DNA from: Parcubacteria group bacterium GW2011_GWF1_45_5
Lineage (GTDB): Bacteria > Patescibacteriota > Minisyncoccia > UBA6257 > Brennerbacteraceae
Direction: 5' to 3'
NCBI GenBank assembly: GCA_001001795.1
Contig: LCLB01000001.1
Location: 8,249 to 43,351 of the forward strand
DNA: 35,103 bases
Below, in pieces: positions 1 through 16,700 of the stretch. Both the position numbers and the translations under genes were made by a program. Position 1 is the first letter of the stretch; every line of letters starts with the position of its first letter. The notes beneath the pieces were generated by a model. It did not search any database. It was not told where the DNA came from and saw only the letters and a program-made list of their open reading frames with translations.

Positions 1-1
1 C

Positions 2-529
2 GTGAAGGGAAGCTTTGCCGTAGCGATGCGTGCAATACGGAACGTGGTGAACTTGGATGCGAGTATCGTCACCAACATCGTGGTGTGTTCAGAAAATTTC
101 CGTTTCCTCAAACAATATATCGATGTTCTTGTACAGGCACGGGTGAGCAAGACTATTTTCCTGTTCATTGTGCCCGAAGGGAATGCGTTGCGTAACTCGT
201 CTTTAATCCCGGCGCTTCCGGAAGTTATCCCGTACGTACAGGATGCCGTTGATTATGCCAATATAAAAGGTGTTTACCCTGCGCTAACTTTTTTCCCTTT
301 TTGTGCGCTTGATCCGTATTATATTTCGTATGCGGCGGAAGCATATATGCCGGACCGGTTTAAAGATCCCGAGGCGTTTTCCGCGCGGAGGCATAGGCCA
401 CCGCAGTGTCTCCGGTGCGCGTGTTATCGATTATGCCCCGGGGTCTGGGAAGCGTATTATACACTCCATAGTTTTTGTTTTAAGCCTTTCCCGGTACGCC
501 GCCGTAGTGTGGGATCTCGTCACAAGTAG
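2..529 (+). CDS. Radical SAM protein, C-terminal part only (5' end outside the window)
   Basis: Aligns by eye along its length with the C-terminal ~60% of ORF 686-1570 (VKGSF..A..AI.N, VVCSENF.FLK.YI, FFPFC.L, CxxCxxxxxCPGVWE.YY). The frame runs to the window edge. Confidence 0.8.
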   Translation: MKGSFAVAMRAIRNVVNLDASIVTNIVVCSENFRFLKQYIDVLVQARVSKTIFLFIVPEGNALRNSSLIPALPEVIPYVQDAVDYANIKGVYPALTFFPFCALDPYYISYAAEAYMPDRFKDPEAFSARRHRPPQCLRCACYRLCPGVWEAYYTLHSFCFKPFPVRRRSVGSRHK

Positions 530-532
530 CCG

Positions 533-652
533 ATGACCGGTAGATTATTGGTTTCTCTGCCACATTTTTTATCCCACGCGGTTCGCGCGCTGACGGAGGG
601 CGGTGGTATATCATGGAATCTCATTTGTTTTCTTAATATTCTTATATTATGA
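533..652 (+). CDS. Possible 39-aa small ORF (MTGRLLVSLPHFLSHAVRALTEGGGISWNLICFLNILIL) between two rSAM genes
   Basis: ATG lies 3 nt after the upstream stop; open to TGA at 650-652; occupies most of the intergenic gap. No homology support. Confidence 0.2.
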   Translation: MTGRLLVSLPHFLSHAVRALTEGGGISWNLICFLNILIL

Positions 653-685
653 TAAACAGTACAGATAGCGGATATTCATACTTTC

Positions 686-1570
686 ATGCGTCATTACAGA
701 CTTTTCCTGACGAGTGTTCGCAATGAGAATTGTTCGTTTTGTTCGGTAAAAGACGATCCGTTTGTCTCCCTTTCTTTTTTGGATGCGGTTACCTTGCTCC
801 GGGAGGCTCGAAGAAAAGGTGCCGATTATTTAAGCATAGACGGAGGAGAGGTAACGATGACGTCCTACTTTACGAAACTGATTCAGCGAAGCGTTTCCCT
901 TGGTTTCAAAAAGATAGTCGTCAATACAAACGGTTTTGGTTTTCGCAATCGTGATTTTACCGAAACCGTTTTGGAAGAAAGGCAGCATATATTGAGGATA
1001 TGCATTTCCTTGTATGGTCATAATAAGCGCGTACATGACAGATTGACTAACGTAAAAGGAAGCTTCGATGCCACGATAAAGGCCATAAAAAACATAACCG
1101 ACATGCGAGGTGATCTTGTTGCCAGTCTGGTCGTATGCTCGGAAAACTTTCCCTTTTTGAAAAAATATATCGGCACTCTGAAACGATTGAAGATAAAAAC
1201 AGTGATTATATCATTTGTTGCAGTTGAGGATGATGTGTTATGGAAGCCGTCATTTGTTCCCGATATAAGAGATACCATTCCGTTTCTTCAAAAGGCAATT
1301 GACTACGCCAATACAAAAAATATAAGCATATCGCTTGTTTTTTTTCCTTTTTGCGTACTGGGTAAATATTACACCGAGTATGCGACCGAGAGGTATGCGG
1401 GCAATCGTTATAAGAATCAAAAAGAGTTTTTTAAAGGAAAACACATTTCGAAACAGTGTTTTGGATGCACCTATTACAATTCATGTCCGGGCGTTTGGGA
1501 AGAATATTATAAATTGCGCGGTTTCAGGTTCAGGCCCGTATCCGCAAGACTTCACGAGTCATCTAATTAA
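686..1570 (+). CDS. Radical SAM-like protein with degenerate cluster motif (RNENCSFC) and GGEV
   Basis: Aligns with the neighbouring rSAM ORFs; has SLYGHNKRVHDRLTNVKGSF, FFPFC and CFGCTYYNSCPGVWEEYY. Confidence 0.82.
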   Translation: MRHYRLFLTSVRNENCSFCSVKDDPFVSLSFLDAVTLLREARRKGADYLSIDGGEVTMTSYFTKLIQRSVSLGFKKIVVNTNGFGFRNRDFTETVLEERQHILRICISLYGHNKRVHDRLTNVKGSFDATIKAIKNITDMRGDLVASLVVCSENFPFLKKYIGTLKRLKIKTVIISFVAVEDDVLWKPSFVPDIRDTIPFLQKAIDYANTKNISISLVFFPFCVLGKYYTEYATERYAGNRYKNQKEFFKGKHISKQCFGCTYYNSCPGVWEEYYKLRGFRFRPVSARLHESSN

Positions 1571-1582
1571 TGAGTATTCATT

Positions 1583-3517
1583 TTGTTTCTAATGGAACGC
1601 ATAGATATAAAAATAGGATTCCAATGCAATAATCGTTGTCTTTTCTGTATTCAGGGAGAGAGGCGGTACAGTGAGCCGGATAAGTCCGAAAAAGAAATAC
1701 GGGATATTCTGCGAAGGATGAGGAAAAACCATAACGGTGTTGTTTTCACCGGTGGAGAGCCGACCATAAGACCGGAGCTTTTGGACCTGGTGCGGTACGC
1801 TAAAGAAATAGGGTACCGGCATATTCAAATCCAAAGCAACGGACGGATGTTCGCGTATCCGGAATATTGTCAGGCGTTGATAAGGGCTGGATGTAACGAA
1901 TTTTCTCCCGCACTTCACGGTTCCACTTCTCGCATACACGACTCTTTGACTCGTGCGCCCGGCAGCTTCAATCAAACAGTTCGGGGTATCCGGAATCTGA
2001 AAGCGCTGGGTCAGCACATTATTACCAACAGCGTTGTCACCAAAATGAATTATAAAGATTTGCCCGCGCTGGCTCGTTTGCTGGTGAGTCTTGGTGTTGA
2101 TCAGTTCCAGTTTGCCTTTATGCATATTAATCCGGTCATAGCGCACGATTCTTCATTGATCCGAAAACTTGTCCCCCGATATCAAGAAGCAGTTCCTTAC
2201 ATGAAGAGAGGTATAGAGATAGGGGGAAAAGCGGGGATAAGGGTTATGGTTGAAGCAACGCCATATTGTTTTATGAAAGGATATGAGAAATATGTGTCCG
2301 AGCAGTATATTCCTTTCTCAAGCGTAGTAGACGGCAAAAAAGAAATAACGGATTACGGTTCATATAGGAAAAATATCGGAAAATCCAAAGGGCCTAAATG
2401 TAGTCAATGTATATATAATGGGGTCTGCGAGGGTCCTTGGGCCGAATATCCCCGTATTTTCGGGTGGTCGGAATTAAAACCCGTATATTCCGATCCAGAA
2501 ATTATATCCAGTACCGGTGCCGTAGACGAAAAGGAAAGCGTAAAACGTGGGAAAGGATCAAAGGAAGACCAATCGTCTTCCGGAAAGGTTTTTCTGGTCA
2601 TGACGGGCTTTTTATGCAACAACGATTGCGTTATGTGCAGCGTGAAACCCAAGGCGTTGCAGTATGTTTCCCGAAGCACAAAAGAGATTATCAAGGACAT
2701 GGAAAGGGGAATAAAGTCCGGCTATGAGAATATTGAATTTACAGGAGGAGAGCCGACAACAAGAGATGATGTATTATTACTGATCAAAAAGGCGAAAAAA
2801 TTGGGATACAGGGATGTCGCGCTCGGAACCAATGCCCGGACGTCGAGTTCTTTGTCGTTTTTGAAGGAATTGCAGAGAAATGGTTTAACCAGGTTGGTAA
2901 CAACAGTATACGGACCGACCCCGAAAGTTCATGATAAGGTGACCCGGGTGCGGGAAAGTTTCAGGCAAACTATTCAAGGTGTTAGAAACTCGCTTCGTTT
3001 AGGGATTATGACAAGCGTTAACACAGTTGTCTTCAATATGACTGTTGGTTCTTTGAGGGACACGGGGCTTTTTCTATTTTCTCTTGGTGTGAGGCATTGG
3101 ACTTTGCTCGATTTGATTCCGGACGGATATGTACACGATCAGTATTCGCTTTTTTCGGTGCACCCAGAAAGTCTACAAAATGCTTTGAAAAGAATAGGTC
3201 CGGTTCTTCCAAAATTCGGGCAGGTTTTATTCATGGACTTCCCTTATTGTTTATTCCCACCCTCATTATTGAAAATGGAAAACTGTCATTTCATTAACGC
3301 GAAAGAGAGAACCGAGATCATTAAACAGGTTGGCTATAATCCAAAGCGTTTTCAAGAAAAATCTAATACCTATTACGATATCCATAAAACCAGGGTTCGG
3401 AAATGCTCGAAATGCGTCTATCGCGACGAATGTGGAGGCGTCTGGGTTCCATTTCCGGATTCATATGGGGAGTCTTTTATTAAACCGTTTATCAGGAGAA
3501 TAGACAGGGATCGATAA
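1583..3517 (+). CDS. Tandem-fused double radical SAM protein
   Basis: Two full sets of motifs: CNNRCLFC...FTGGEPTIRPE...TPYC...CSQCIYNGVCEGPW, then CNNDCVMC...FTGGEPTTRDD...FPYC...CSKCVYRDECGGVW. Confidence 0.93.
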   Translation: MFLMERIDIKIGFQCNNRCLFCIQGERRYSEPDKSEKEIRDILRRMRKNHNGVVFTGGEPTIRPELLDLVRYAKEIGYRHIQIQSNGRMFAYPEYCQALIRAGCNEFSPALHGSTSRIHDSLTRAPGSFNQTVRGIRNLKALGQHIITNSVVTKMNYKDLPALARLLVSLGVDQFQFAFMHINPVIAHDSSLIRKLVPRYQEAVPYMKRGIEIGGKAGIRVMVEATPYCFMKGYEKYVSEQYIPFSSVVDGKKEITDYGSYRKNIGKSKGPKCSQCIYNGVCEGPWAEYPRIFGWSELKPVYSDPEIISSTGAVDEKESVKRGKGSKEDQSSSGKVFLVMTGFLCNNDCVMCSVKPKALQYVSRSTKEIIKDMERGIKSGYENIEFTGGEPTTRDDVLLLIKKAKKLGYRDVALGTNARTSSSLSFLKELQRNGLTRLVTTVYGPTPKVHDKVTRVRESFRQTIQGVRNSLRLGIMTSVNTVVFNMTVGSLRDTGLFLFSLGVRHWTLLDLIPDGYVHDQYSLFSVHPESLQNALKRIGPVLPKFGQVLFMDFPYCLFPPSLLKMENCHFINAKERTEIIKQVGYNPKRFQEKSNTYYDIHKTRVRKCSKCVYRDECGGVWVPFPDSYGESFIKPFIRRIDRDR

Positions 3518-3545
3518 GGATATATGATTAAGGTGTACAGTACAT

Positions 3546-4430
3546 ATGAGTGGTATCAGAAAAAAGATTAAAAATAAAGAAACGAGCCCATACGTTTACG
3601 TTGGGTATGCTTGCAACAATAATTGCATATTTTGCAGTGAGGCCGATGAATATCTTTCTGGGTTGAAGGAAAAGTCCATTGCGGAAATCAGAAAAGAACT
3701 CCGGATAATAAGAAAAAAATATGATTTCGTAAGCATCATGGGCAGGGAGCCGACAGTGAGAAAGGATATTCTAGAAATCATAAGATTTGCCCGGAGCCTT
3801 AAGTTCAGACAGGTGGGGTTGACAACGAATGGTCGTATGTTCTCTATCTCGTCTTTCACGAAAGCGGTTCTCGCTACGGGTATCAATCAAATCGGGGTTT
3901 CTCTTTCCGGGGCATCGGCCCGTATCCATGATCGCCAGACACTTGTCCCGGGAAGTTTTAAACAAACAATCGCCGGCATCAAAAGCATCATCAGATACAA
4001 AGGAAAAAACACAAGCCTTCTTGTTAACCTTCCAATGAACAGGTTGAATTATCGTAATCTTGGCGCGGAGCTGGAGCTATTAACCGGTTTAAGAGTCCGA
4101 GAGATAAATATTCTAAATATTTCCCCATTAAGCACGCGTTCTGCCACCAAAAAGCTGATTATGCCGATGCCCCGGCTTGGCGCTTACGTTTTTAATGTTT
4201 TAAAAAGAGGTGGTTTTTTGAACAAAACAGATTTGAGGGTTTTGTTGGTCGAATTTCCTCCGTGCAGTTTGCCGAAAGAGGCGCAGGTATATTCTTTTCC
4301 TTGCCTGGAGAAAAACAACGACAAAGTCAGAATCTCTCTTTGCAGACAATGTTCTTATAAAATTAAATGTGACGGAATCCTGAATTCATATCTTCGTTTG
4401 TATGGCGATAATGAGTTTATCCTGGAATAA
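3546..4430 (+). CDS. Radical SAM protein with GREP variant
   Basis: CNNNCIFC cluster motif; MGREPTVRKD at the GGEP position; SLSGASARIHD...GSFKQT; FPPC; CRQCSYKIKCDG. Confidence 0.88.
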   Translation: MSGIRKKIKNKETSPYVYVGYACNNNCIFCSEADEYLSGLKEKSIAEIRKELRIIRKKYDFVSIMGREPTVRKDILEIIRFARSLKFRQVGLTTNGRMFSISSFTKAVLATGINQIGVSLSGASARIHDRQTLVPGSFKQTIAGIKSIIRYKGKNTSLLVNLPMNRLNYRNLGAELELLTGLRVREINILNISPLSTRSATKKLIMPMPRLGAYVFNVLKRGGFLNKTDLRVLLVEFPPCSLPKEAQVYSFPCLEKNNDKVRISLCRQCSYKIKCDGILNSYLRLYGDNEFILE

Positions 4431-4431
4431 A

Positions 4432-4572
4432 ATGAACACCGGAGCTTTAACCATATCTCGAAATAGGATATTGGATTTAGTTTACGAACCTCTCAAAAAA
4501 CCGGGCACTCTTTCCGGAATTCCTCGGTGGTTGTCGAAGAGATGTCCTTACACGATCCTTTATAATTTATAA
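4432..4572 (+). CDS. Possible 46-aa small ORF (MNTGALTISRNRILDLVYEPLKKPGTLSGIPRWLSKRCPYTILYNL)
   Basis: ATG 1 nt after the stop of the preceding rSAM gene; fills the 150-nt gap to the next rSAM gene. Below the ORF-track size cutoff; no homology support. Confidence 0.25.
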   Translation: MNTGALTISRNRILDLVYEPLKKPGTLSGIPRWLSKRCPYTILYNL

Positions 4573-4581
4573 TATCTTGAT

Positions 4582-5598
4582 ATGAAAAGAGCCGAAAACA
4601 ATCAGGGTGTTGCCCCAGGCGGGAGCGTTGTGACGCACGAGGCACATGCGTATATCCAACTGAACACTACTTGTAATCAAAAATGTTTATTTTGTAACAG
4701 ACCACCCATGGATCCGACGAAGGTCGTTAAGTGGTGTATTCCAAAATCGAAGGACGTCATGAAGGCAATCAAGGATAAGTTAAGGGATCCCGCGATGAAA
4801 AGAATTATCTTTACTGGCGGAGAACCTCTTTTATATCCCGACATTTCTAAAGTTATCCGTTTTGCGAAGAAGTGCGGTTTTATGGTCGAAATTCAAACAA
4901 ATGGTACGTTGTTGGACAGACAGATGATATCTACCTTGAAAGACGCCGGACTGGACATTATTAACTTCGGGTTGCACAGTCATAAGAAGAATGTCAGCAG
5001 CCAGTTGCGGGGTGTCCGGTTTGGCTTTGAAACCATTATAAAAAACCTCCGGCTTGCCGATAAAAACGGTTTTAAAATCCATATCATTCATGTCATTAAT
5101 TCGTTCAATTATAAAGACCTTCCCGGGTTTATTGATTTTATGCACAAGTTGCGTCTTCATAATCTTTGGTTGAATCTTAGTCTGGTTGTTCCGGAGGGCT
5201 GGGCATGGGAGAATAAACGAGTCATTCCCAGGGCGCGGGATATTAAGCCGTTTTTGCAAAAAGCGATGAAAAAATGTTCGACTTACGGAATTCGTTTTGA
5301 TGTTTCGGAAATCGTACCGTTGTGTATCGTTGACGGCTTTGAAAACCATGCCATTTCAACTTTATTCAAGATATCCCAATTTAAAATAGTGGATGATTAT
5401 CTTTCCGGGGTGCGGGGTCTCGATTTTTCCAAACCGTCTTCTTTACAGGCCGCAAAAGCTCCACAGTGCAAAAAGTGTACCATGAATGCGATATGCGCAG
5501 GATTCTACCCACGGCTTAAGGAACTCTACGGTGTAAGAGACTTTATCCCGCGTACAGATGATCCTTTACCGGTTTATAAGAAGCTACGCCTTATATGA
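4582..5598 (+). CDS. Radical SAM protein
   Basis: CNQKCLFC; FTGGEPLLYPD; HVINSFNYKDLPGF; VPLC; CKKCTMNAICAGF. Confidence 0.92.
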   Translation: MKRAENNQGVAPGGSVVTHEAHAYIQLNTTCNQKCLFCNRPPMDPTKVVKWCIPKSKDVMKAIKDKLRDPAMKRIIFTGGEPLLYPDISKVIRFAKKCGFMVEIQTNGTLLDRQMISTLKDAGLDIINFGLHSHKKNVSSQLRGVRFGFETIIKNLRLADKNGFKIHIIHVINSFNYKDLPGFIDFMHKLRLHNLWLNLSLVVPEGWAWENKRVIPRARDIKPFLQKAMKKCSTYGIRFDVSEIVPLCIVDGFENHAISTLFKISQFKIVDDYLSGVRGLDFSKPSSLQAAKAPQCKKCTMNAICAGFYPRLKELYGVRDFIPRTDDPLPVYKKLRLI

Positions 5599-6500
5599 TG
5601 AATGAAAAAGAACTGTCCAAAGCGGCAAGAATTGTTCCTCAAACCAATTTTGTTTTGTCGGAATTCATGGCGATGTTGGTCGGTGAAAAACCGGCCATAG
5701 TGACAAGTTTTCAGAATAGAGGAGAGGATAGCTTCATAAAGACCAATTTTCCAGGTTTATTTATGGCCATAGGAAATGGATCCTGGTACATAAAGGAACC
5801 GATTTTAGCCATATCCAGGAATAAAGAATTCGCCCGACAGGCAGCCGACTATCTTAATGTAGTCTCAATAGAGGCGCAAGGGAGGGTTCTGGGCTACCCG
5901 AATTGTTGCAGCAAGCGGCATGCTGATTTTTGTCGCGATGGCAAGGCGCTTGATTCGTCTTTTATTGTCTTCGAAACACACCGAAGTTCAGAGAAACATA
6001 ATTACCTGTTGAATAATCTTTTCAATTTTTACAGTAGGCTCGGGATGGACCAGGGGAGGTTTGATGATTTTATCCGATATGGTAAAGTCAATGAAAGAAT
6101 TTTAGGATTTTATGCCTTCCACCTGGAGTATATTTCTCATATACCTTGCCGTTACGACTGTCCCAAAAGTGTAAAAATCGGAAAAAGGATAGAGTCAATT
6201 TTGAGAAAATATGCCCCCGTGATGGAGAACAACATAAAATATTCCCTTGCGAAACCGGTATTATTCTTCAACCTTTTTAATCTGGTTGTGTTCGATGGTT
6301 ACTGCGAAGGCGACACCTTGTTTTATAGTAAGGTGGCGCCCCCTTATTTTCCTTCAGCCAGTACTTTGGTAGCGCTCCTTAAAGAAGGCAACAGAATTGT
6401 TGTTTCCGACCGCAGAATCTCGATATACAACGGGAACAAAAAACTATTTTCCTATAAAAAAAAGAGTATAAGAGACGGTTTTATCATCGATTTCAAATGA
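5595..6500 (+). CDS. Uncharacterised protein with GYPNCCSKRHADFC motif (loosely like DUF483-type proteins)
   Basis: ATGA overlap with the upstream rSAM stop; conserved-looking LGYPNCC segment. Family assignment is from memory and weak. Confidence 0.7.
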   Translation: MMNEKELSKAARIVPQTNFVLSEFMAMLVGEKPAIVTSFQNRGEDSFIKTNFPGLFMAIGNGSWYIKEPILAISRNKEFARQAADYLNVVSIEAQGRVLGYPNCCSKRHADFCRDGKALDSSFIVFETHRSSEKHNYLLNNLFNFYSRLGMDQGRFDDFIRYGKVNERILGFYAFHLEYISHIPCRYDCPKSVKIGKRIESILRKYAPVMENNIKYSLAKPVLFFNLFNLVVFDGYCEGDTLFYSKVAPPYFPSASTLVALLKEGNRIVVSDRRISIYNGNKKLFSYKKKSIRDGFIIDFK

Positions 6501-7762
6501 TTCCTTCGGGACAGAATCTTACATTAGATCAATCCAAGAATAAAATGAAAACAACCGACATATTTAAAGGCAAAGAGATCGAAGCATCTTCTCATGATTC
6601 CGTGCGCCATCCGGAGATGCTCTATATCAGCATAGACGAGCAATGCAATCAGAACTGTGCCTTTTGCGTGGTAAAAGGGGGTAACGAAGGGAAGTTCGGT
6701 TCAATGAGCACCAGCGCAGTGAAAAAGATGATCAGGGCATTTATTGGTTCAGGAGGAAGGCATATTATCTTTACCGGAGGGGAACCTACGTTGCGCAACG
6801 ACCTCCCCGGAATCATAGCGTACGCTGAAAAATTTGCAGGATTATACTCGATCGCCATTATTACCAATGGCACGCGTCTTTCCGATAAGCAGTACGGCAA
6901 AGACCTTCTTGCCGCTGATAAGAAGAACAAGCTCGGCATTTGTGTTTCCTTGCATTCCCACAAAGAAAGAATCAGCGAGTCGCTTACGCATTCTTTCGGA
7001 ACTTTCAAAAAAACAATGAGGGGGATCGAATATTTCGTGAATCACGGGAAGAACCTTTCGATATATCATGTAATCACCTCCCGGAATTACAAGGATCTTC
7101 CGGGATTCGTGAAGTTTTTAAATAAAACATATCCCAGGATAAAGGATGTTACCTTCGCATATCCGTTCCCTCAAGGGAATGCCCTGTTGAATGACTGGAT
7201 TTACGTAAAATTCAGCGCTTTGAAACCATATTTTTTAAGAACCCTTTCCTTTTTGGAAAAAGAGAAATACAACGTAAGCATAGCAAGCTGTGGACAGTTC
7301 CCTCTATGCATTCTGCCCGGATTCGAAGAAAAAGTGCTCCAGCCACTATCTGAGAGCGAGGAGAATGTCTCCGGTGTGGTTGGGGAAAAATCTTTTCATG
7401 AGTTCGAAATGTCATCCTCGGAATGGATTGATCAATATAAAATAGGAGGGAAAGGATGCCGTAATTGTATATTAAACAGGTACTGTCAAGGGTTTTGGAA
7501 AAAGTACGTCGATTTGTTTAGTTTTAACGGTATGCGACCGGTTACAATTTCTAATTTCAAGGGAAACAAAATAAGGGCACCATTAACTAGTGGAAAACAA
7601 ATGCAGGAGATGATCAATAGAATAAAAACAACCAAGATGAATCTTATTCTGCTTGCGCATGTTGACGATGATTATTTGAAAGGACTTTTGGAGTTCTTGA
7701 GAACAAAAAAGGTGTTTGCGGTGGTCGTACATAAGAAACGTATTTTATACCCTTTATCTTAA
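6497..7762 (+). CDS. Radical SAM protein with ~70-aa C-terminal extension
   Basis: CNQNCAFC; FTGGEPTLRND; HVITSRNYKDLPGF; FPLC; CRNCILNRYCQGFW; extra C-terminal tail relative to its paralogues. Confidence 0.92.
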   Translation: MIPSGQNLTLDQSKNKMKTTDIFKGKEIEASSHDSVRHPEMLYISIDEQCNQNCAFCVVKGGNEGKFGSMSTSAVKKMIRAFIGSGGRHIIFTGGEPTLRNDLPGIIAYAEKFAGLYSIAIITNGTRLSDKQYGKDLLAADKKNKLGICVSLHSHKERISESLTHSFGTFKKTMRGIEYFVNHGKNLSIYHVITSRNYKDLPGFVKFLNKTYPRIKDVTFAYPFPQGNALLNDWIYVKFSALKPYFLRTLSFLEKEKYNVSIASCGQFPLCILPGFEEKVLQPLSESEENVSGVVGEKSFHEFEMSSSEWIDQYKIGGKGCRNCILNRYCQGFWKKYVDLFSFNGMRPVTISNFKGNKIRAPLTSGKQMQEMINRIKTTKMNLILLAHVDDDYLKGLLEFLRTKKVFAVVVHKKRILYPLS

Positions 7763-7796
7763 GTATTTTTAGTCAAGGCGGTGGCATAAGCGTCAT

Positions 7797-8735
7797 ATGA
7801 AACAAATAAAAAAAACAGTCATTTTTTTCAGTTATACATGCAACAACAGATGCGTTTTTTGCATTAATTACAATAAAAGGAAGATTGCCGCGCCGTCTTA
7901 CACAGATGTTAAAAAGGATATATTGAATGCAAAAAGGAGAGGAAGCACGTATCTGGAACTCATCGGAGGGGAACCGACCATAGATCCCAATATCTTGGGG
8001 CTTATTCTGTTTGCCAAAAGAATGAAGTTCGAGACCGTTATGATGGCGACAAACGGCAGGATGTTCGCCTATAAAGATTTTACCGAAAAGATTTTACGCG
8101 TGGGCCTTAATAGCATTATTTTCTCTATTCATGGTCATACGGCAACGCTGCATGACTCATTGACCGGGGTGCAGGGGAGTTTTGCGCAATTGAATCAGGG
8201 GGTAAAAAATGTCCAAAAGATCTCCAAGAAACTTCACCTACAGGTAATGCTCGGGACAAATACAACCATTGTGAGGCAAAACTATAAACTTTTACCACGA
8301 ATCGGAGCCTATATAAAAAAAATCGGTCTTTATAACGCAGAGTTCATTTTCGTTGATCCAACGTACGGTGGGGCGCATGATGATTTCCGTACCCTTGTGC
8401 CCAAGATTTCGGAGATTGCGCCATACGCTCATGCATGCTTGGATATTGGAAAGAAATACAAGATTCAGCACTGGCATATCCGGTATGTTCCCTTGTGTTA
8501 CTTTCAGAATTATCTTGACCAAATCAGTGAATTGAATGAAATAAATGTTTATAGTAATGTCGAGCACATTGCCCCTGACTTTTACAATTCACATGCTCTC
8601 GAAGGAAGGAAATTAGTAGGGAGGGCGCGTCCTTCGAAATGTAAAGGGTGCGGACTTTATGCGATGTGTGAGGGGATATGGAAAGAATATCTTCGCCATT
8701 ATGGCGATTCTGAATTAATCCCTCAAAAGGCATGA
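7797..8735 (+). CDS. Radical SAM protein
   Basis: CNNRCVFC; LIGGEPTIDPN; SIHGHTATLHDSLTGVQGSF; VPLC; CKGCGLYAMCEGIWKEYL. Confidence 0.93.
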   Translation: MKQIKKTVIFFSYTCNNRCVFCINYNKRKIAAPSYTDVKKDILNAKRRGSTYLELIGGEPTIDPNILGLILFAKRMKFETVMMATNGRMFAYKDFTEKILRVGLNSIIFSIHGHTATLHDSLTGVQGSFAQLNQGVKNVQKISKKLHLQVMLGTNTTIVRQNYKLLPRIGAYIKKIGLYNAEFIFVDPTYGGAHDDFRTLVPKISEIAPYAHACLDIGKKYKIQHWHIRYVPLCYFQNYLDQISELNEINVYSNVEHIAPDFYNSHALEGRKLVGRARPSKCKGCGLYAMCEGIWKEYLRHYGDSELIPQKA

Positions 8736-9784
8736 TAGAGCCCTTGCGGGAGGAGGATTACGGAGTATGGGACGCTTTCGTGGAAGAATCTTCCGACGGG
8801 ACATTATTCCATACGATCGCGTGGAAGAGAATTTTAGAGGAAACATTCGGTTACCAGCCATATTATTTTATTTTAAGAGACGCCAAAGGCGGGATTGCCG
8901 GGATATTTCCGGCGTTTTTGGTCAGGGGTATCCATGGAAAGGTGCTTGTGTCGTTGCCGTTTATGGAGTACGGAGGGCCAATTGTACGGGATGGGTATTA
9001 CGCATCGATGTTTGAAAGTATCGTTAATTTATTTGTGATGTTAAAAAAAGAACAAGGCGTACGTTATCTTGAGATAAAGACGCCTCCAGATACGCAATAT
9101 CATGACGCAGAGTCGTTCTTATTTGCGCCGGTTGTTAAGGCATACGATTATAGTATTAATATCGGCGGGAGGGATTTTACGAATGATTTTTGGCCGAAGA
9201 TGAAAGCGAAAACAAGGGTTCGGCACTCAGTTGTGCAATCGTGCCGGTACGGGGTAGGAGTGGCAGATGCCGATATACACTCCTTCTATGCGCTTCATGT
9301 CAGTAGTATGGCGCGTGTCGGTTCACTTCCATGGCCACAACGATTTTTTGCAAATATACGCACATATTATCCTGCATCACGGTTTATCGGGGCATATATT
9401 GATAAAAAAATGATCGGGGCAATGCTTAATTTGCCGTATCGGGCAAGGGATTTAGCGGTTGTGCTGTCGTACGATCGTTCATGCCAAGCATACCGGGCAA
9501 GCGATCTTTTGTATTATCATGAGATACGGTTTGCTTTTGAGAATCGATTCGCCACAGTTGATTTTGGCCGTACCCGTCCCGATTCCCCGTACGAAAAATA
9601 CAAACAAAAATGGGGAGCGACAAAACATACGCTTTATAGCTACGTGTACCCCGCAGATATGTGCCATTTGGTCGATCCGTATGCCTCCTATACGCGCTTC
9701 GCGCGATTCACAAGAAATAACATAGCATGGAACGCCTTCGTACATACTTTTTTCGGGCAAAACGCCATACGCTATTTCCCGTAA
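8732..9784 (+). CDS. FemAB/GNAT-superfamily protein (resembles FemAB-related exopolysaccharide-associated proteins)
   Basis: N-terminus ...LFHTIAWKRILEETFGYQPYYFILRD...GIFPAFLV and C-terminal ...SDLLYYHEIRFAFENRFATVDFGRTRPDSPYEKYKQKWGA; ATGA overlap with the upstream rSAM. Confidence 0.8.
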   Translation: MIEPLREEDYGVWDAFVEESSDGTLFHTIAWKRILEETFGYQPYYFILRDAKGGIAGIFPAFLVRGIHGKVLVSLPFMEYGGPIVRDGYYASMFESIVNLFVMLKKEQGVRYLEIKTPPDTQYHDAESFLFAPVVKAYDYSINIGGRDFTNDFWPKMKAKTRVRHSVVQSCRYGVGVADADIHSFYALHVSSMARVGSLPWPQRFFANIRTYYPASRFIGAYIDKKMIGAMLNLPYRARDLAVVLSYDRSCQAYRASDLLYYHEIRFAFENRFATVDFGRTRPDSPYEKYKQKWGATKHTLYSYVYPADMCHLVDPYASYTRFARFTRNNIAWNAFVHTFFGQNAIRYFP

Positions 9785-10440
9785 ATTTGGAGATCCGACA
9801 GCGGATATTTTTCAACCGTGTTGCGGAAGATTTCGGGACACGTGCGTGGGCTACGGGTAGGGTGGCGGAACGGCAGGCAATACGTCGATGGACGGCAGAA
9901 CGTATCATATACGGCGAGAACATTCTCGACGTCGGTGTCGGCAACGGTCTTATGTTCCAGTACCTTAAAAGGAAAATCAATTATACGGGTATCGATATTT
10001 CCGAGAATATGCTTATTCAGGCCGGAATTCGGGCGCGTCATTACGGGATTCCCTTCACTGCCCTACAGGGTAATGCCGCTGCGTTGCCGTTCCCCGATAG
10101 TTCGTTCGATACAGTTATGTGCATAGATATGTTCCATCATATTCCCCGGTTTCTTCGGAGTCGCGTATTAGGTGAACTTGTACGGGTAGTGCGTCCCCGC
10201 GGTCAAATTATTATAGAAATAAAGAATCAATGGAATCCATTCATCGCATGTGGATATTTGATTGGCGGTATGGTTCATGGCGTTACTATGGTCCCCGTTA
10301 ATCCGTTTAATGTCCGGCATTATTTCTCCGAAACAGGTTTTCATATACAAGACAAATTTATTGTGCCTCCGCGCATATGCCCGCCGTTCATCGTGTTTGA
10401 TTTGCGTCAGGGTACAGGCGATGTCCGTGTGATACAATAA
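9727..10440 (+). CDS. SAM-dependent methyltransferase (class I)
   Basis: ILDVGVGNGLMFQYL...YTGIDISENML...LPFPDSSFDTVMCIDMFHHIP...LVRVVRPRGQIIIE. The start may lie downstream of 9727, since it overlaps the upstream CDS by 58 nt. Confidence 0.88.
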   Translation: MERLRTYFFRAKRHTLFPVNLEIRQRIFFNRVAEDFGTRAWATGRVAERQAIRRWTAERIIYGENILDVGVGNGLMFQYLKRKINYTGIDISENMLIQAGIRARHYGIPFTALQGNAAALPFPDSSFDTVMCIDMFHHIPRFLRSRVLGELVRVVRPRGQIIIEIKNQWNPFIACGYLIGGMVHGVTMVPVNPFNVRHYFSETGFHIQDKFIVPPRICPPFIVFDLRQGTGDVRVIQ

Positions 10441-10477
10441 AACAAGGGAATAAAATTATGTAAATATTTTTCCTACC

Positions 10478-11173
10478 TTGATTATGACGGTATCAGTTAT
10501 TGTTCCGGTGTACAACGAAGAAAAAACCATCGCGACAACCATTCGCGCGATCAATGCGGTTAATATATCAAAACAAGTGATTATTGTTGATGATGGCTCT
10601 ACGGATGCAACCCGTGAGGCTATCGGTATGCTGTGCGATCAATACCAGTTCATATTAATCAGACACGAGGGTAATCAAGGGAAAGGAACCGCCATTCAAT
10701 CGGCGCTTGCCCATGCCACTGGCGAAATATCTGTTATTCAGGACGCGGATCTGGAAACCAGCCCCGATAATTATCCACGCCTGGTAGAGCCGATTATCCG
10801 GGGCGAAACAGGGGTGGTGTTTACGTATCGCATACGTGCCCCTATAACCAAAGAATCATTGTCGCATTGGGTGTACCGTTGGGGGAACGCGGTGCAAACA
10901 TGCTTGGCTAATTTGTTATTTGGCGCCAGTATACGTGACGTAAACAGTGGTTGTAAGGCGTTCAGAACCGATATATTGAAAGCATTTGAATTGCGGGAAC
11001 GGGGATTTGCCGTTGAACATGAGATGACGGCGAAGGCATTAAAGAGGAGTCGTTGTATATACCAACTGCCGATTCGATATTTTCCCCGTACGATTAGGCA
11101 GGGTAAGAAAATAAATTTTTTTGACGGTATCAAAGGAATTACAGCCCTTATTCGATACAGATTCATTCCGTGA
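10478..11173 (+). CDS. Glycosyltransferase family 2 (dolichyl-phosphate-mannose-synthase-like)
   Basis: VSVIVPVYNEEKTI...VIIVDDGSTDAT...NQGKGTAIQSAL...QDADLE. An ATG start at 10484 is more likely than TTG at 10478. Confidence 0.93.
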   Translation: MIMTVSVIVPVYNEEKTIATTIRAINAVNISKQVIIVDDGSTDATREAIGMLCDQYQFILIRHEGNQGKGTAIQSALAHATGEISVIQDADLETSPDNYPRLVEPIIRGETGVVFTYRIRAPITKESLSHWVYRWGNAVQTCLANLLFGASIRDVNSGCKAFRTDILKAFELRERGFAVEHEMTAKALKRSRCIYQLPIRYFPRTIRQGKKINFFDGIKGITALIRYRFIP

Positions 11174-12999
11174 AGAATATGTTTTCCAACAAGATGATTT
11201 CTAAAATGTTGACGGTTACGGTCATTATGGCGGTATATGTTCTGCTTATTTTGTTCATTAATCCCGGCATCCTGTCGTTCCATCGTGATCCGATATTATT
11301 CGAGGAAGATATCAGAATTTTCGTTTATACTTTTCCTTTATTGGCAGTGATTATTGCCGGATACATTTGTTTTTGCGAAAGGCGTGTATTTCTGGAAGTG
11401 ATGCGTTCGGTTCCTAAAAGATATTTTATAACCCTGGGGATAACGGTGATTATTTTTCTTCTTGTCTGTTGTTGGGGAGGATTGACCCTTAAGTTTTTTA
11501 ATCCAACCGATGCCGAATGGGCCGAACTGCATTACGCCAGGGACTTGGTGACGGGCGATAAACGTGCATTTCTTTATCTTATAGACCGGGTAATGGGCAT
11601 CTTGATATATGCCATAGGATTTAAGGTATTTGGATTTACGCCTTTTGTAGGGACAATAACCAGCTTAGTGGTCGGCGCCCTCTCCATTGTCGCGGTTTTC
11701 TTCTTGGCCCAAGTTCTATTTCGTAATCCTCGGATCAGTTTGGCCAGCGGCATGGTGTACGCCGCGAACCCCCATGTCCTGATTTTTTCTTCGGTCAGGA
11801 TGGGATACACGATTATAGTCGGTCTTTTCATGTTACTTTTTATTATCGCCGCGGTTTTAGCCTTTAGGCGGCATTCTTTTCCCCTGCACATTGTCGCCTT
11901 GGCTTGTTTTGCGGTTATGAATCAGACCAAACCAGAGTACTTTGTTCTGATCGGGGTTTACGCATTTTGCTATCTGTTATTCGGAGAATTTAGGCATTTA
12001 TCCTGGCGACGTACGGCAGTATTGTGTCTGGTTTTGTTTTTATTCTCCATACCATTTTTACTAACTAATTATCATTTCCGCCAGACAACCATGGATGGTT
12101 GGTGTAGCTTTCCTTCGCAACCATTTCATGATGGCAGATTCTATTCTTATTTTTCGCCTGTGCTAGCCCCTATGGACGTAGCTTTGCGTTTCTTATTGAA
12201 TAATCGTTTTTCCCTGAATTATTTCTTCAACGATATTCCTTCGTTTATTTCGTTTTGGGGTTCTCTGAAGATGGTAATTATAAGCGTGGTGGCAATGGTT
12301 GGCTTTTTGCTTTCTTTTAAGAAACATTTTAGGGATAATTTGTTCTTATTTTTATCCTTCGTAATAATGTCGTTTATATATTTAGCCGATTGTATTTACT
12401 ACGAGGATCGTTTGGCGGTTCCGACTTACAATATTGCTGTTTTGTATGTCGGTTTTGCCATTGGTTTTCTTGCGGATTCGTTGACGAGGTTCATCGGGAA
12501 GGGCGAGATATCCAGGTATATTTCTGTCATCATCATTTCGTTGGCTGTTTCATTGGTGTCGTTGGGAGTGGCTTTTAAAAGTTATCGTTCATATCTCGGT
12601 GAACGTCTTTTGCCGCATTCGCTGTTGGACCTTTCGTCAACTTATAGTGTCGATATTTATGGAGACTTAAGATCAATCTCGGATAAATACGGTTTTGCGC
12701 CCGCGCAATCATATCTTATTCTCCCTGGTCACGCTGAGCTGCATTCGGCTCAATTTCTTGGTTATGAAGCGATTGCTCTTTCTGATATGTTCGACAGCTC
12801 GTTTTTTACTGACCGCGATCTTTTCCTTGGAAACTTTCAACTGCCTCATGGGGCATTTAAGAATAATTATTTCATCGAGAGTCCCCAGTGTTCTCCGCCC
12901 GATCAGGAGCTTGGTGTCATGTGCGAATTTGTAAAAATAAACTATAAGGAACGTATGATAGGGCAATGGGGAGTGTATACTATATATCAATTAAAGTAA
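11170..12999 (+). CDS. Multi-pass membrane glycosyltransferase, GT39/PMT-like
   Basis: Many hydrophobic segments; early acidic motif FNPTDAEWAELHYARDL; GMVYAANPHVLIFSSVRMGYT; GTG start overlapping the GT2 stop. Confidence 0.72.
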   Translation: MKNMFSNKMISKMLTVTVIMAVYVLLILFINPGILSFHRDPILFEEDIRIFVYTFPLLAVIIAGYICFCERRVFLEVMRSVPKRYFITLGITVIIFLLVCCWGGLTLKFFNPTDAEWAELHYARDLVTGDKRAFLYLIDRVMGILIYAIGFKVFGFTPFVGTITSLVVGALSIVAVFFLAQVLFRNPRISLASGMVYAANPHVLIFSSVRMGYTIIVGLFMLLFIIAAVLAFRRHSFPLHIVALACFAVMNQTKPEYFVLIGVYAFCYLLFGEFRHLSWRRTAVLCLVLFLFSIPFLLTNYHFRQTTMDGWCSFPSQPFHDGRFYSYFSPVLAPMDVALRFLLNNRFSLNYFFNDIPSFISFWGSLKMVIISVVAMVGFLLSFKKHFRDNLFLFLSFVIMSFIYLADCIYYEDRLAVPTYNIAVLYVGFAIGFLADSLTRFIGKGEISRYISVIIISLAVSLVSLGVAFKSYRSYLGERLLPHSLLDLSSTYSVDIYGDLRSISDKYGFAPAQSYLILPGHAELHSAQFLGYEAIALSDMFDSSFFTDRDLFLGNFQLPHGAFKNNYFIESPQCSPPDQELGVMCEFVKINYKERMIGQWGVYTIYQLK

Positions 13000-13009
13000 T
13001 CAAACAATT

Positions 13010-13228
13010 ATGGTTAAAAAGGTATCGACGAAAATTAAGGAATATGTTCTGGTATACCAAAGCCAGGAACATTATGAGGTGCTGGGGTATGTTCGAGCTC
13101 CATCTATGATAGTAGCCAAGAAGAGGGCTCAAAAAAAACTTCTGCCGGAAGCGAAATATTATAATGTTCCGCAAGCGGAAATAGACGAGATAGCGGGTTT
13201 CGACAGAGTAGACTTTGATTTGAAATAA
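13010..13228 (+). CDS. Small 72-aa uncharacterised protein
   Basis: Complete ORF filling the gap between the GT39-like gene and an rSAM gene; EYVLVYQSQEHYEVLGYVRAPSMIVAKKRAQKKL. Confidence 0.6.
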   Translation: MVKKVSTKIKEYVLVYQSQEHYEVLGYVRAPSMIVAKKRAQKKLLPEAKYYNVPQAEIDEIAGFDRVDFDLK

Positions 13229-13250
13229 TCATTTTGTATTTTCCGTTTCA

Positions 13251-14195
13251 TTGCCATTCTTGATTATGCCCGATGTTGCCATTTGGAACCAGTGTAACAA
13301 TCATTGCGTGATGTGCACGAATTCTTTATCTTTCCAATCGGAGAAAGAGAGTGTTCCTTACGCATTTAAAAGTATCAAACAAAGATGGGTGCGACGCGCC
13401 ATGGGGCCGGAGGATGTGATTTCTTTCAGCGGGGGAGAGCCCACGATTCATCCTGAATTTTTCGAAATTATCCATTGGTTTCGTGCCGAATATCCCAAAC
13501 GCACCATTGTAGTGGTGTCGAACGGGAGAATGTTTAGTTATCTTCAATTCACGAGAAACATTCTGAAAATCAGTAATATTCTTTTTGAAGTCGCCCTTCA
13601 TGGATACGATGAGAAATCGCACGACAGTGTAACCCGTGCTCCGGGGAGTTTCCGACAGACCGTTCAAGGGATTCATCACATCTTACGCCACAAGAAAGCA
13701 TCGCAAGAATTGGAGATACGGATTGTCGTCACCAAACTTACTTATAAGCACCTGGGGAAGATACTCTCTTTTGTTGAAAAAGAATTCGGCGCTCAAAAGA
13801 TACGGGACATCGCTCTGATTTTTATAGAAATGGAGGGTCAGGCTCAAGATAACGCACGAGTCGTGGGCATATCGTATGAAAAGGTAAAGAAATATATAGA
13901 ATCTGCCGTCCACGACTGGTCATCGTCTTTCCGTGAACTTCGATTGCTTCATTTTCCTTTATGCACAATTCCTCAAATATTATGGCCGTACGCATGGAGA
14001 ACGCTCAGGGAAGAGGAGGTGACCTTTTTGTCGCGTTGTGCATCGTGTCTGATGAAGAAATATTGCTTGGGAATCCATAAGGACTATATAAGCATCATGG
14101 GGAAGGGAGAATTCAAACCGGTTCGAAATATGAAGAAAAAGATAGAAAAGGGGATCTCTTTCTATAAGCCCATTAAAAGCATTTCGCGGGGATGA
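13251..14195 (+). CDS. Radical SAM protein
   Basis: CNNHCVMC; FSGGEPTIHPE; ALHGYDEKSHDSVTRAPGSFRQT; FPLC; CASCLMKKYCLGIHKDY. True start probably the internal ATG at 13266 or the first codon. Confidence 0.92.
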   Translation: MPFLIMPDVAIWNQCNNHCVMCTNSLSFQSEKESVPYAFKSIKQRWVRRAMGPEDVISFSGGEPTIHPEFFEIIHWFRAEYPKRTIVVVSNGRMFSYLQFTRNILKISNILFEVALHGYDEKSHDSVTRAPGSFRQTVQGIHHILRHKKASQELEIRIVVTKLTYKHLGKILSFVEKEFGAQKIRDIALIFIEMEGQAQDNARVVGISYEKVKKYIESAVHDWSSSFRELRLLHFPLCTIPQILWPYAWRTLREEEVTFLSRCASCLMKKYCLGIHKDYISIMGKGEFKPVRNMKKKIEKGISFYKPIKSISRG

Positions 14196-15373
14196 CCATT
14201 CCTTCAACCGTTATTACCTATTTATTCCTGATTCCTCTTGGATTGCTTGGTGGCATCACCAGTTATACTGACATCAGATACGGGAAGATAAAGAACATTC
14301 ATTTGCTTTTGGGGTTGATATATTCGATTTGTTTGTATTCTTTTCTGATTGTTTACAGTACGTACGGCATTCATCAACCGGGTAATCTGAAATATCTTTT
14401 CAATCTATTTCTAAACGGATCCTTTGCGTTTTTATGCGGTTATCTTTTATGGCGTTTTGATTTATGGGCGGCAGGGGATGCGAAACTTTTTTCTCTTTTT
14501 GCGTTTCTTATCCCTCTGGAGTTTTATTCTCGCAGTTATATCTCTCTTTTCCCCTCGGCAACGCTTCTGATCGATGCATTCCTTTTCATCTGTTCCGCTT
14601 TTATTGTTGAAATGCTTTGCAAATTGACCCTATCGCTGTACGGTATCGCTAGGAGTTTTCTTAGAAAAATTAAAGAAGGTTTTAGGTTGTCTTTCTCCGA
14701 TTTTTTCCGAATGCGATGGGGAGTTTTAAAGAGCTTTATTATAGAAACAGGGAAATTGTTTCTATTGTGCACCAGCGCGCTTATTGCCATCGAGGGCCTT
14801 TCAATTTTTCTGAAAAAGATTATCCCTTCGGCGAACATATCGCACCCTTTGCTTTTTCAAACATTTTTTTTCGCGTTGCAAATCATTTTATTTAGATCCC
14901 TTTGGAAAAACAAAATATTTGTTAGATTAATTTTAGTGGCAGGCGCAGTATGCGGTACCATTTTTCTTTTATCGCATAATGGAATATTATTACTGAATCT
15001 GGTAAAAAACTCTATAATCCTTTTGCTTTTGGTGGGAGTTGTCATGCAGATGGTCTATACGTACATCGAATCTCACGAGACCAGAAGAATAAGGGCTAAA
15101 GATGTTTGTCTGGGTAGCTTTATTACCCCGGAGTCGTTACTTTATATAGAAAATGAGTTTAAAAAGAAAAATAAGGCAGATGAGCTCGGTACCTGTTGTT
15201 CCGATGGTTTGACAAGGATCCAGGCGGATCTTATCCGTGACGTATTCGAAAACGATGACAGCATTCGGATAAACGTATATAAAACCTTCTTTTTCGCACC
15301 TTTTATATTTTTGGCCTTCTTATTCACGATTTTGACAAAGGGATCATTCTTGTTTTTCCTTCTGGATCTTTAA
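14192..15373 (+). CDS. A24-family (prepilin/preflagellin) peptidase-like membrane protein, archaeal type
   Basis: SYTDIRYGKIKN and WAAGDAKLF match the two aspartyl motifs; C-terminal DGLTRIQADLI and FAPFIFLAFLFTIL; multiple TM segments; ATGA overlap with the rSAM stop. Confidence 0.78.
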   Translation: MTIPSTVITYLFLIPLGLLGGITSYTDIRYGKIKNIHLLLGLIYSICLYSFLIVYSTYGIHQPGNLKYLFNLFLNGSFAFLCGYLLWRFDLWAAGDAKLFSLFAFLIPLEFYSRSYISLFPSATLLIDAFLFICSAFIVEMLCKLTLSLYGIARSFLRKIKEGFRLSFSDFFRMRWGVLKSFIIETGKLFLLCTSALIAIEGLSIFLKKIIPSANISHPLLFQTFFFALQIILFRSLWKNKIFVRLILVAGAVCGTIFLLSHNGILLLNLVKNSIILLLLVGVVMQMVYTYIESHETRRIRAKDVCLGSFITPESLLYIENEFKKKNKADELGTCCSDGLTRIQADLIRDVFENDDSIRINVYKTFFFAPFIFLAFLFTILTKGSFLFFLLDL

Positions 15374-15403: not shown

Positions 15404-15482
15404 GTAAGAGCAGATATCTATTTTCTGACCTTTGCGATAATATTTGCACGACATACTTTGCGATAGATCGAGTTTATTATTT

Positions 15483-16700
15483 ATGGATACGCGCGTGTAT
15501 TTGGATTGCGCCGCTTCAACGCCGGTTGACCCACGGGTCGTTGCTTCTATGGAGCCGTATTTTTCGGCTATATTCGGGAATCCCGGGTCGGTACATGCAT
15601 TTGGCAGGGAGGCCCAAGCTGCGCTTGATATGGGTCGTCAAAATATCGCCCGACTATTCGGAGTTGATTTCGGTAATGTCGTATTTACTTCTTCGGCAAC
15701 CGAAGCGAATAATTTGATCATTCAGGGAGCGGTAAAAATGTACAGGAAAGAACAGGGACCGGACCACGAGCTCCCCCATATTATTACCAGTAGTATCGAG
15801 CACGAATCAATACTGGAAGCTTGCAGAGATCTGGAACAGAATAGTTTGGCAACCGTTACCTATGCGCCCGTTAACAAAGAAGGGTTCGTTGATGTAGCGG
15901 TTATAGCCGGAAGTTTGCGTAAAGAAACCGTGTTGGTTTCCATTATGTATGTGAATAATGTGACCGGAGCGATCCAGCCGGTTGAAGAGATCAGCAAGAT
16001 TATCAAGGGATTCAAAAGCGATAAACTTTCCCCTCGGCATCAGTCGCGTTACTCTCCTAAAGAGTTGATGTATCCGATTTTTCATAGCGATGCCGCACAG
16101 GCAATCCACTGTCTCGAAAAGATTGGTCTTTATGATCTAGGGATGGATGCCGTGACAGTTTCCTCTCATAAAATTTACGGTCCCAAAGGAGCAGGGGCTC
16201 TTATCGCCGGTTTTTCTTTTGGCATCGGGATTGCTCCAATGATAATGGGGGGGATGCAGGAGTTTGGCATACGCGCAAGCACGCAGGATGTGCCGGGTAT
16301 TGTTGGCTTTTCCGATGCGCTTAAATTTGTACGCGAAGAACTTGTACAAGAAAAAAAACATACTAAAGAATTGAAGAACATTCTTGTGAAGGGGATTATT
16401 TCCTCTTATCCTCGGGCGGTTATCAATTCCTGCGAACCATGTATCTCGAGTGTGTGCAACATTTCGTTTCCGGGATTCGGACTCGAAGAACTGCTGTATC
16501 GGTTTGATCAACAAGGGATTGCGGTTGCCGCGGGGTCGGCATGCAGCGCAAAGGTTCTGGGACCTTCTCACGTTCTCGTCGCCATGGGGCTGGATGAACC
16601 TTTGACGACTTCAGCGATCCGTTTCAGTTTTGGAAAATTTATTACGCGGGAGGCTATGCACTATTGTGTTGAACGGATTCCCTTGATTCTCGCCCGGTAG
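15483..16700 (+). CDS. Cysteine desulfurase (NifS/IscS family); start revised from 15444 to the in-frame ATG at 15483
   Basis: VYLDCAASTPVDPRV...NPGSVHAFG...SSIEHESIL...HSDAAQ...SSHKIYGPKGAGAL...GSACSA. Confidence 0.95.
   Translation: MDTRVYLDCAASTPVDPRVVASMEPYFSAIFGNPGSVHAFGREAQAALDMGRQNIARLFGVDFGNVVFTSSATEANNLIIQGAVKMYRKEQGPDHELPHIITSSIEHESILEACRDLEQNSLATVTYAPVNKEGFVDVAVIAGSLRKETVLVSIMYVNNVTGAIQPVEEISKIIKGFKSDKLSPRHQSRYSPKELMYPIFHSDAAQAIHCLEKIGLYDLGMDAVTVSSHKIYGPKGAGALIAGFSFGIGIAPMIMGGMQEFGIRASTQDVPGIVGFSDALKFVREELVQEKKHTKELKNILVKGIISSYPRAVINSCEPCISSVCNISFPGFGLEELLYRFDQQGIAVAAGSACSAKVLGPSHVLVAMGLDEPLTTSAIRFSFGKFITREAMHYCVERIPLILAR

Follow-up and report, generated by a model that had tools for sequence, protein, structure and literature searches.

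An expanded HxsC section in a probable His-Xaa-Ser (Hxs) RiPP cluster of a 657-kb genome, with a dedicated prepilin-type peptidase

The radical-SAM array described here is, in all likelihood, the expanded HxsC section of an Hxs (His-Xaa-Ser) RiPP cluster, comprising about nine HxsC-derived domains. This reading rests on the adjoining HxsD, HxsD-like and HxsB genes, whose products score above the cut-offs of their families, and on the array domains themselves, for which the best NCBIfam family is HxsC or HxsC4; the exception is C5, which scores slightly higher with MoaA/tungsten-maturase models than with HxsC-type ones. The genome (657 kb, 51 contigs, 96.6% complete) was analysed in a window of 35,103 nucleotides, C1:8249-43351, and in the contig to its left. 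Throughout, the prefix "C1:" denotes the contig, while the names C1 to C8 denote the HxsC-like domains of the array.

Results

The array and its domains

The ORFs, together with Pfam searches, confirmed the claim of the first-pass annotation that nine radical-SAM domains lie on one strand in eight ORFs, all on the plus strand (Table 1), the first of these domains being partial: a scaffold gap of 10 N (C1:8239-8248) breaks its gene, which starts at C1:7807, and only the C-terminal half of the domain is inside the window. Pfam Radical_SAM scored above its cut-off in every full-length array domain (45.6-166.7 bits). The core motifs that had been described as common to the array hold for most of its members, with three exceptions. 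In C2, R-NENCSFC replaces CxxxCxxC, with Arg (codon CGC) at the position of the first cysteine, and GGEVT stands in place of GGEPT; C4 carries GREPT, which its orthologues keep, and C5 carries GGEPL. Towards the C-terminus, all eight complete domains carry CxxC(x5)C and, ahead of it, one more cysteine within an FPxC-like motif, an arrangement that we take to be the mark of one auxiliary cluster, as in SPASM/twitch proteins.

The cluster holds 11 of the 13 Pfam radical-SAM matches of the genome. Five genomes of the same family have 0-2 such matches, and none of them has a TIGR03978 match above the HxsB cut-off; the 14 relatives with an HxsD gene have 10-34. A promoter/terminator scan gave a small excess of terminator-like sites (25 against 18.3 expected) and no excess of promoter-like ones.

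Table 1. Genes of the cluster and of its left flank (window positions, unless prefixed with the contig)
Feature	Position	Strand	Remarks
HxsD	C1:3300-3734	+	70.6 bits, above cut-off 50
HxsD-like protein	C1:3625-3960	+	69.3 bits, above cut-off 41
HxsB	C1:3957-5420	+	499.5 bits, above cut-off 370
HxsA-type precursor, 147 aa	C1:5417-5860	+	HxsA4 model 48.6 bits, cut-off 55
SPASM-type radical-SAM protein, 646 aa	C1:5919-7859		
HxsC-like domain C1, C-terminal half	1..529 (ORF 2-529)	+	best relative C2
HxsC-like C2	686..1570	+	TIGR03977 94.7 bits; sister of C1
Two-domain radical-SAM protein	1583..3517	+	C3a (residues ~1-320) and C3b (~321-644); separate genes in relatives
HxsC-like C4	3546..4430	+	GREPT signature
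HxsC-like C5	4582..5598	+	family searches and tree
DUF483-like protein	5595..6500	+	invariant GYPxCC and two further cysteines; DUF483 18.2 bits
HxsC-like C6	6497..7762	+	family searches and tree
HxsC-like C7	7797..8735	+	NF038332 136.7 bits, cut-off 500
FemAB/GNAT-fold protein	8732..9784	+	cargo; other clusters without it
SAM methyltransferase	9727..10440	+	cargo
GT2 glycosyltransferase (AglJ-like)	10478..11173	+	cargo
PMT_2-type membrane glycosyltransferase	11170..12999	+	cargo
72-aa protein	13010..13228	+	family F14; no Pfam match
HxsC-like C8	13251..14195	+	TIGR03977 182.3 bits, cut-off 267.9; closest to canonical HxsC
A24 prepilin-peptidase-type membrane protein	14192..15373	+	terminal gene of the conserved set

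The left flank and the Hxs assignment

The array had been expected to continue leftward, and extending the contig, as had been proposed, bore this out: HxsD, HxsD-like, HxsB and an HxsA-type precursor precede the array on the same strand, a SPASM-type enzyme lies between them and the array, and the genes mostly overlap, HxsB and the further SPASM-type enzyme bounding the stretch C1:3957-7859. The family HMM searches, likewise proposed, gave the HxsC and HxsC4 matches named above, all of them below the cut-offs. No array domain reached the curated HxsC cut-off, C8 coming closest with TIGR03977. The HxsC4 cut-off of 500 (NF038332) was reached neither by the single domains (136.7-175 bits) nor by the two-domain protein (288), and we therefore rejected HxsC4 membership.

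Further left of the cluster lie an FNR-like oxidoreductase, recognised by eye, and then two proteins with N-terminal hydrophobic segments (L001:434-1138 and L001:1290-3266). One of the two has a phage tail-collar domain; the family of the second occurs near hxs genes in six genomes and adjoins hxsD here and in G371, G376 and G178.

HxsD was considered as a PqqD-type RRE for the leader, and this was not supported: the winged-helix fold was not seen in a structural model of HxsD from locus L033 (pLDDT 78, pTM 0.60). The model has a beta-alpha-beta-beta-long helix arrangement and gave no match in the PDB at E <= 0.001, the weak ones being mainly ferredoxin-like folds. Leader binding would then have to happen elsewhere, which, together with the loss of the first triad cysteine in C2, fits an arrangement in which some HxsC-like proteins are not enzymes but serve one large maturation complex as scaffold or for recognition. 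We consider this unlikely, however, as all other complete clades retain CxxxCxxC and the C-terminal cysteines across families.

Relatives, gene order and the paralogue tree

Of 384 genomes sampled from the class, 20 have HxsD (18 above the cut-off), and 14 controls gave none; among 380 genomes sampled across the phylum, those outside the class gave no HxsD match above the cut-off. Relatives of HxsB, found by name, occur in Paceibacterota, Parcubacteria, Gracilibacteria, Melainabacteria, Proteobacteria and Bacteroidales. HxsB with a single HxsC and a short precursor is the form seen in loci of Melainabacteria, Photobacterium, Caulobacter, Komagataeibacter, one gammaproteobacterium and Bacteroidales, and also in one Paceibacteria genome (G301). 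Otherwise, Paceibacteria have the expanded form, in the order HxsD, HxsD-like, HxsB, HxsA, further radical-SAM genes, C3a, C3b, (C6, C5), C4, (DUF483-like), C7, C8, A24. Examination of neighbourhoods in relatives, another of the proposed checks, showed that this order with its terminal A24 gene recurs in independent assemblies from other families. Hence, an assembly artefact, for which the first-pass annotation had allowed, was rejected; although 10 Ns interrupt the sequence at the window's left edge, such an artefact, or unrelated radical-SAM genes brought together by chance, is exceedingly improbable, given the conserved order and the eight of nine domains that lie in ungapped sequence.

A maximum-likelihood tree of 95 domains, in which the bootstrap was not fully settled and several long branches remained unplaced, separated local duplication from older divergence, as had been suggested. 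The domains are diverged, in agreement with their earlier description as paralogues and not copies. C3a, C3b, C4, C6, C7 and C8 each form a clade with their counterparts in other families (bootstrap 97-100), C5 forms a pair with its orthologue from the same order, and C8 is sister to the single HxsC found in other phyla. C1 and C2 are sisters specific to the present genome and the only local duplication; recent local tandem duplication was thus rejected for all other domains, and with it the idea of a diversifying family in recent local expansion. The paralogues are ancient and one-to-one, with an order conserved across families of the class. These one-to-one clades and the conserved order across several families support the other reading offered by the first-pass annotation, a dedicated multi-step modification pathway.

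Several paralogue clades repeat the same inner branching (e.g., G126 with G298, G210 with G249), as would be expected if the enzyme set moves as a unit. The members of family f46 do not group together within the C3a clade but occupy two places in it, which may point to exchange among families. The G298 cluster contains a second HxsB-like gene, encoded on the opposite strand (L054:2799-4280).

The Gracilibacteria loci are readable only under code 25 (UGA = glycine). HxsD and HxsB are present in L036, L038-L042 and L046, and an HxS-repeat precursor in five of these loci (L036, L038, L039, L041, L046), with a DESGKI variant of the leader in four; L041 has several further radical-SAM genes.

The precursor HxsA

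HxsA of the present genome has a leader, a hydrophobic segment, an AQA junction and 17 HxS units. About 25 HxsA-type proteins share this layout: a common leader P.IKK.IK.FLTSEEGKI.KK, a hydrophobic stretch, an A-x-A-like junction and HGS/SHS repeats. In the present genome and the relatives of its order, the motif HTSxFxNxxGxGxHxS stands ahead of the repeats, and the present HxsA has two FxN motifs. The precursors of two relatives scored 89-91 bits with the HxsA4 model, above the cut-off of 55. Synonymous variation among the repeat codons (TCC, TCT or TCG for Ser, GGT or GGG for Gly) shows that the repeat is more than a DNA microsatellite. The number of HxS units ranges from 2 to 56 among the about 25 proteins while the enzyme set stays broadly constant; hence, the Hxs enzymes probably work iteratively, each on one kind of site.

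In three loci (L033:3311-4825, L054:5248-6915, L055:1503-3068), the repeats of HxsA are followed by a conserved C-terminal domain of ~300 residues (CPFI..WNGK......NNILP.SEN), which had no Pfam match in the two proteins searched. A protein family with an N-terminal hydrophobic segment and without a Pfam match (L054:6912-7718, and also in G191, G287, G202 and G354) is encoded beside HxsA in five genomes.

The A24 peptidase and other partners

The catalytic residues Asp27 and Asp96 (AGDAK) are both present in 13 of 13 A24 proteins; with Pfam PF01478 (cut-off 26.5), the present one scored 18.9 bits and its G371 orthologue 33.2. In 13 Paceibacteria clusters, the A24 gene lies next to where the radical-SAM array ends, and a likely fourteenth lies just past the stretch read of L052; most of the Paceibacteria clusters without a visible A24 gene are cut off by the end of a contig. 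Since the canonical prepilin peptidase of the genome is encoded on contig C32, the A24 protein of the cluster is a second, dedicated one. G389 (Gracilibacteria, locus L036) has the leader motif and no A24 match; A24 is thus not needed wherever the leader occurs, which weakens the idea that A24 generally cuts the leader after EEG.

The first-pass annotation had noted transferases and a peptidase interleaved with the array. The peptidase does belong to the conserved set, as does the DUF483-like gene, which lies inside the cluster in eight genomes, the present one included (29 bits in an orthologue with the DUF483 model, cut-off 25). The transferases fall outside it: the FemAB-like, methyltransferase, GT2 and PMT_2 genes sit between C7 and C8 here and are absent from other clusters, and we rejected them as pathway members, regarding them as cargo of the present genome. 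Four genomes have the gene of the 72-aa protein between C7 and C8. At 15444-16700, the A24 gene is followed by a NifS-type cysteine desulfurase, which most relatives lack at this place and which could possibly supply iron-sulfur clusters to the radical-SAM enzymes.

Linkage to type IV pilus genes

In six relatives (G249, G189, G257, G218, G286, G110), the hxs cluster lies directly 3' of type IV pilus genes on the same strand; within the limits of each contig, these comprise pilB/T, pilC, pilins and pilD. The genes pilD and hxsD share 4 bp in G110, and about 46 bp separate them in G218; Pfam matches confirmed PilC and PilD in the examples searched. In G298 and G126, pilB-pilC lie some kilobases downstream of the cluster. 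The six pilus-linked genomes represent three families, and the chance of three independent pilus-linked cases among 20 is ~3e-6, a rough figure that ignores relatedness and gene-order biases. No pilus gene was seen on contig C1 of the present genome among the ORFs read.

The adjoining pilus genes, together with the surface-protein families F8/F9 that flank many clusters, raise the alternative that the HxsC-derived enzymes act on other surface proteins (type IV pilins or cluster neighbours), HxsA being modified by HxsB and C8 alone. Such a division would agree with the classical systems (Photobacterium, Caulobacter, Bacteroidales and Melainabacteria loci), which use one HxsC only, and with the finding that the conservation of C3b, C4 and C7 is close to that of C8, yet the repeats that they would act on look uniform. 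The present genome, however, has the full enzyme set with no pilin among the genes read near the array, and the pilins near the clusters of relatives look ordinary (GFTLIELLVVIAIIG); hence, we judge this alternative quite improbable. HxsA, a presumably exported His/Ser/Gly-repeat peptide, is most likely the substrate of the Hxs enzymes.

Discussion

Substrate and system had been regarded as unknown in the first-pass annotation. That view does not stand for the system, which is Hxs with an HxsA-type precursor, HxsB and HxsD adjoining, but it holds for the HxsC expansion, which is undescribed as far as we searched; we thus regard the cluster as an expanded form of a known RiPP system. The Hxs system (HxsA, HxsB, HxsC, HxsD; NCBIfam TIGR03976-TIGR03978) is attributed to Haft and Basu (PMC9062424). 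The cluster shares with its classical form HxsB and HxsD above cut-off, a secreted HxS-repeat precursor and a tight operon, and C8 is a sister lineage of the classical HxsC. It differs in having about nine HxsC-derived domains, whereas the classical form has one HxsC and a short HxsA, and in the extra SPASM enzyme, the HxsD-like and DUF483-like proteins, the dedicated A24 peptidase and, in relatives, up to 56 HxS units. Curators have already noticed some of this diversity, since NCBIfam names HxsC4, HxsA4 and HxsD-like families (NF038332, NF038313, NF038315). The HxsD-like protein is above cut-off here and HxsA4 in two relatives tested, and C3a and C7 score best to HxsC4; however, no tested array domain reaches 500 (best single ~175), and these are separate subfamilies. 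Our searches of the open-access literature turned up no description of an HxsC set enlarged in this way, of an A24 peptidase dedicated to the cluster or of a link with pilus genes, and, among the matches listed, nothing specific on Hxs chemistry or on radical-SAM RiPPs of CPR/Patescibacteria; in the papers searched, no experiment connects an Hxs enzyme with a product.

SPASM radical-SAM enzymes are known to form cross-links from His(i) or Phe(i) to residue i+2 (Phe-Asn, Phe-Ser, His-Ala; PMC11002830). The triceptide systems (XncB, OscB/GrrM, MscB, HaaB, YhhB) likewise have SPASM-type radical-SAM maturases, which join an aromatic residue or His at i to a partner at i+2, His and Ser both being known partners, of separate enzymes (PMC11002830); the FxN motifs of the present HxsA are a further likeness. 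In contrast, HxsB scores 61.2 against the GrrM/OscB cut-off of 310 and 61 against the YhhB cut-off of 445, HxsC belongs to a shorter class, and there are far more enzymes per precursor. Because HxS and FxN are both i/i+2 motifs like those of known cyclophane enzymes, we tentatively favour a His(i)-to-Ser(i+2) cross-link, on the model of three-residue cyclophane enzymes, while judging it somewhat less likely than not that the reaction is of this kind.

In the mechanism that we propose, the leader of HxsA would remain cytosolic and hold the core during modification, which would be carried out by HxsB, the second SPASM-type enzyme and about nine HxsC-derived enzymes, one of them apparently inactive. 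Sec would then export the modified HxsA, signal peptidase would cleave it, and either the leader or a partner may be the target of the A24 peptidase of the cluster. A surface or pilus-associated role of the product is conceivable, if rather doubtful. Still more speculative is the full picture, in which certain CPR Paceibacteria would make a surface- or pilus-linked polymer of radically cross-linked His-Xaa-Ser units on a line of ~ten radical-SAM enzymes, one step to each, with a private prepilin-type peptidase for its release, and use it in host contact or metal binding; as a whole, we hold this to be doubtful.

Genomes of ~650 kb discard most biosynthesis, and the present one keeps ~11 oxygen-sensitive, iron-costly enzymes for one peptide system. 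With a naturally sorted set of HxsC paralogues and a candidate substrate, Hxs chemistry becomes directly testable. Since the enzyme set is old, ordered, kept across families and joined to the pilus operon in several relatives, the cluster may matter for the surface behaviour of these, probably host-dependent, bacteria.
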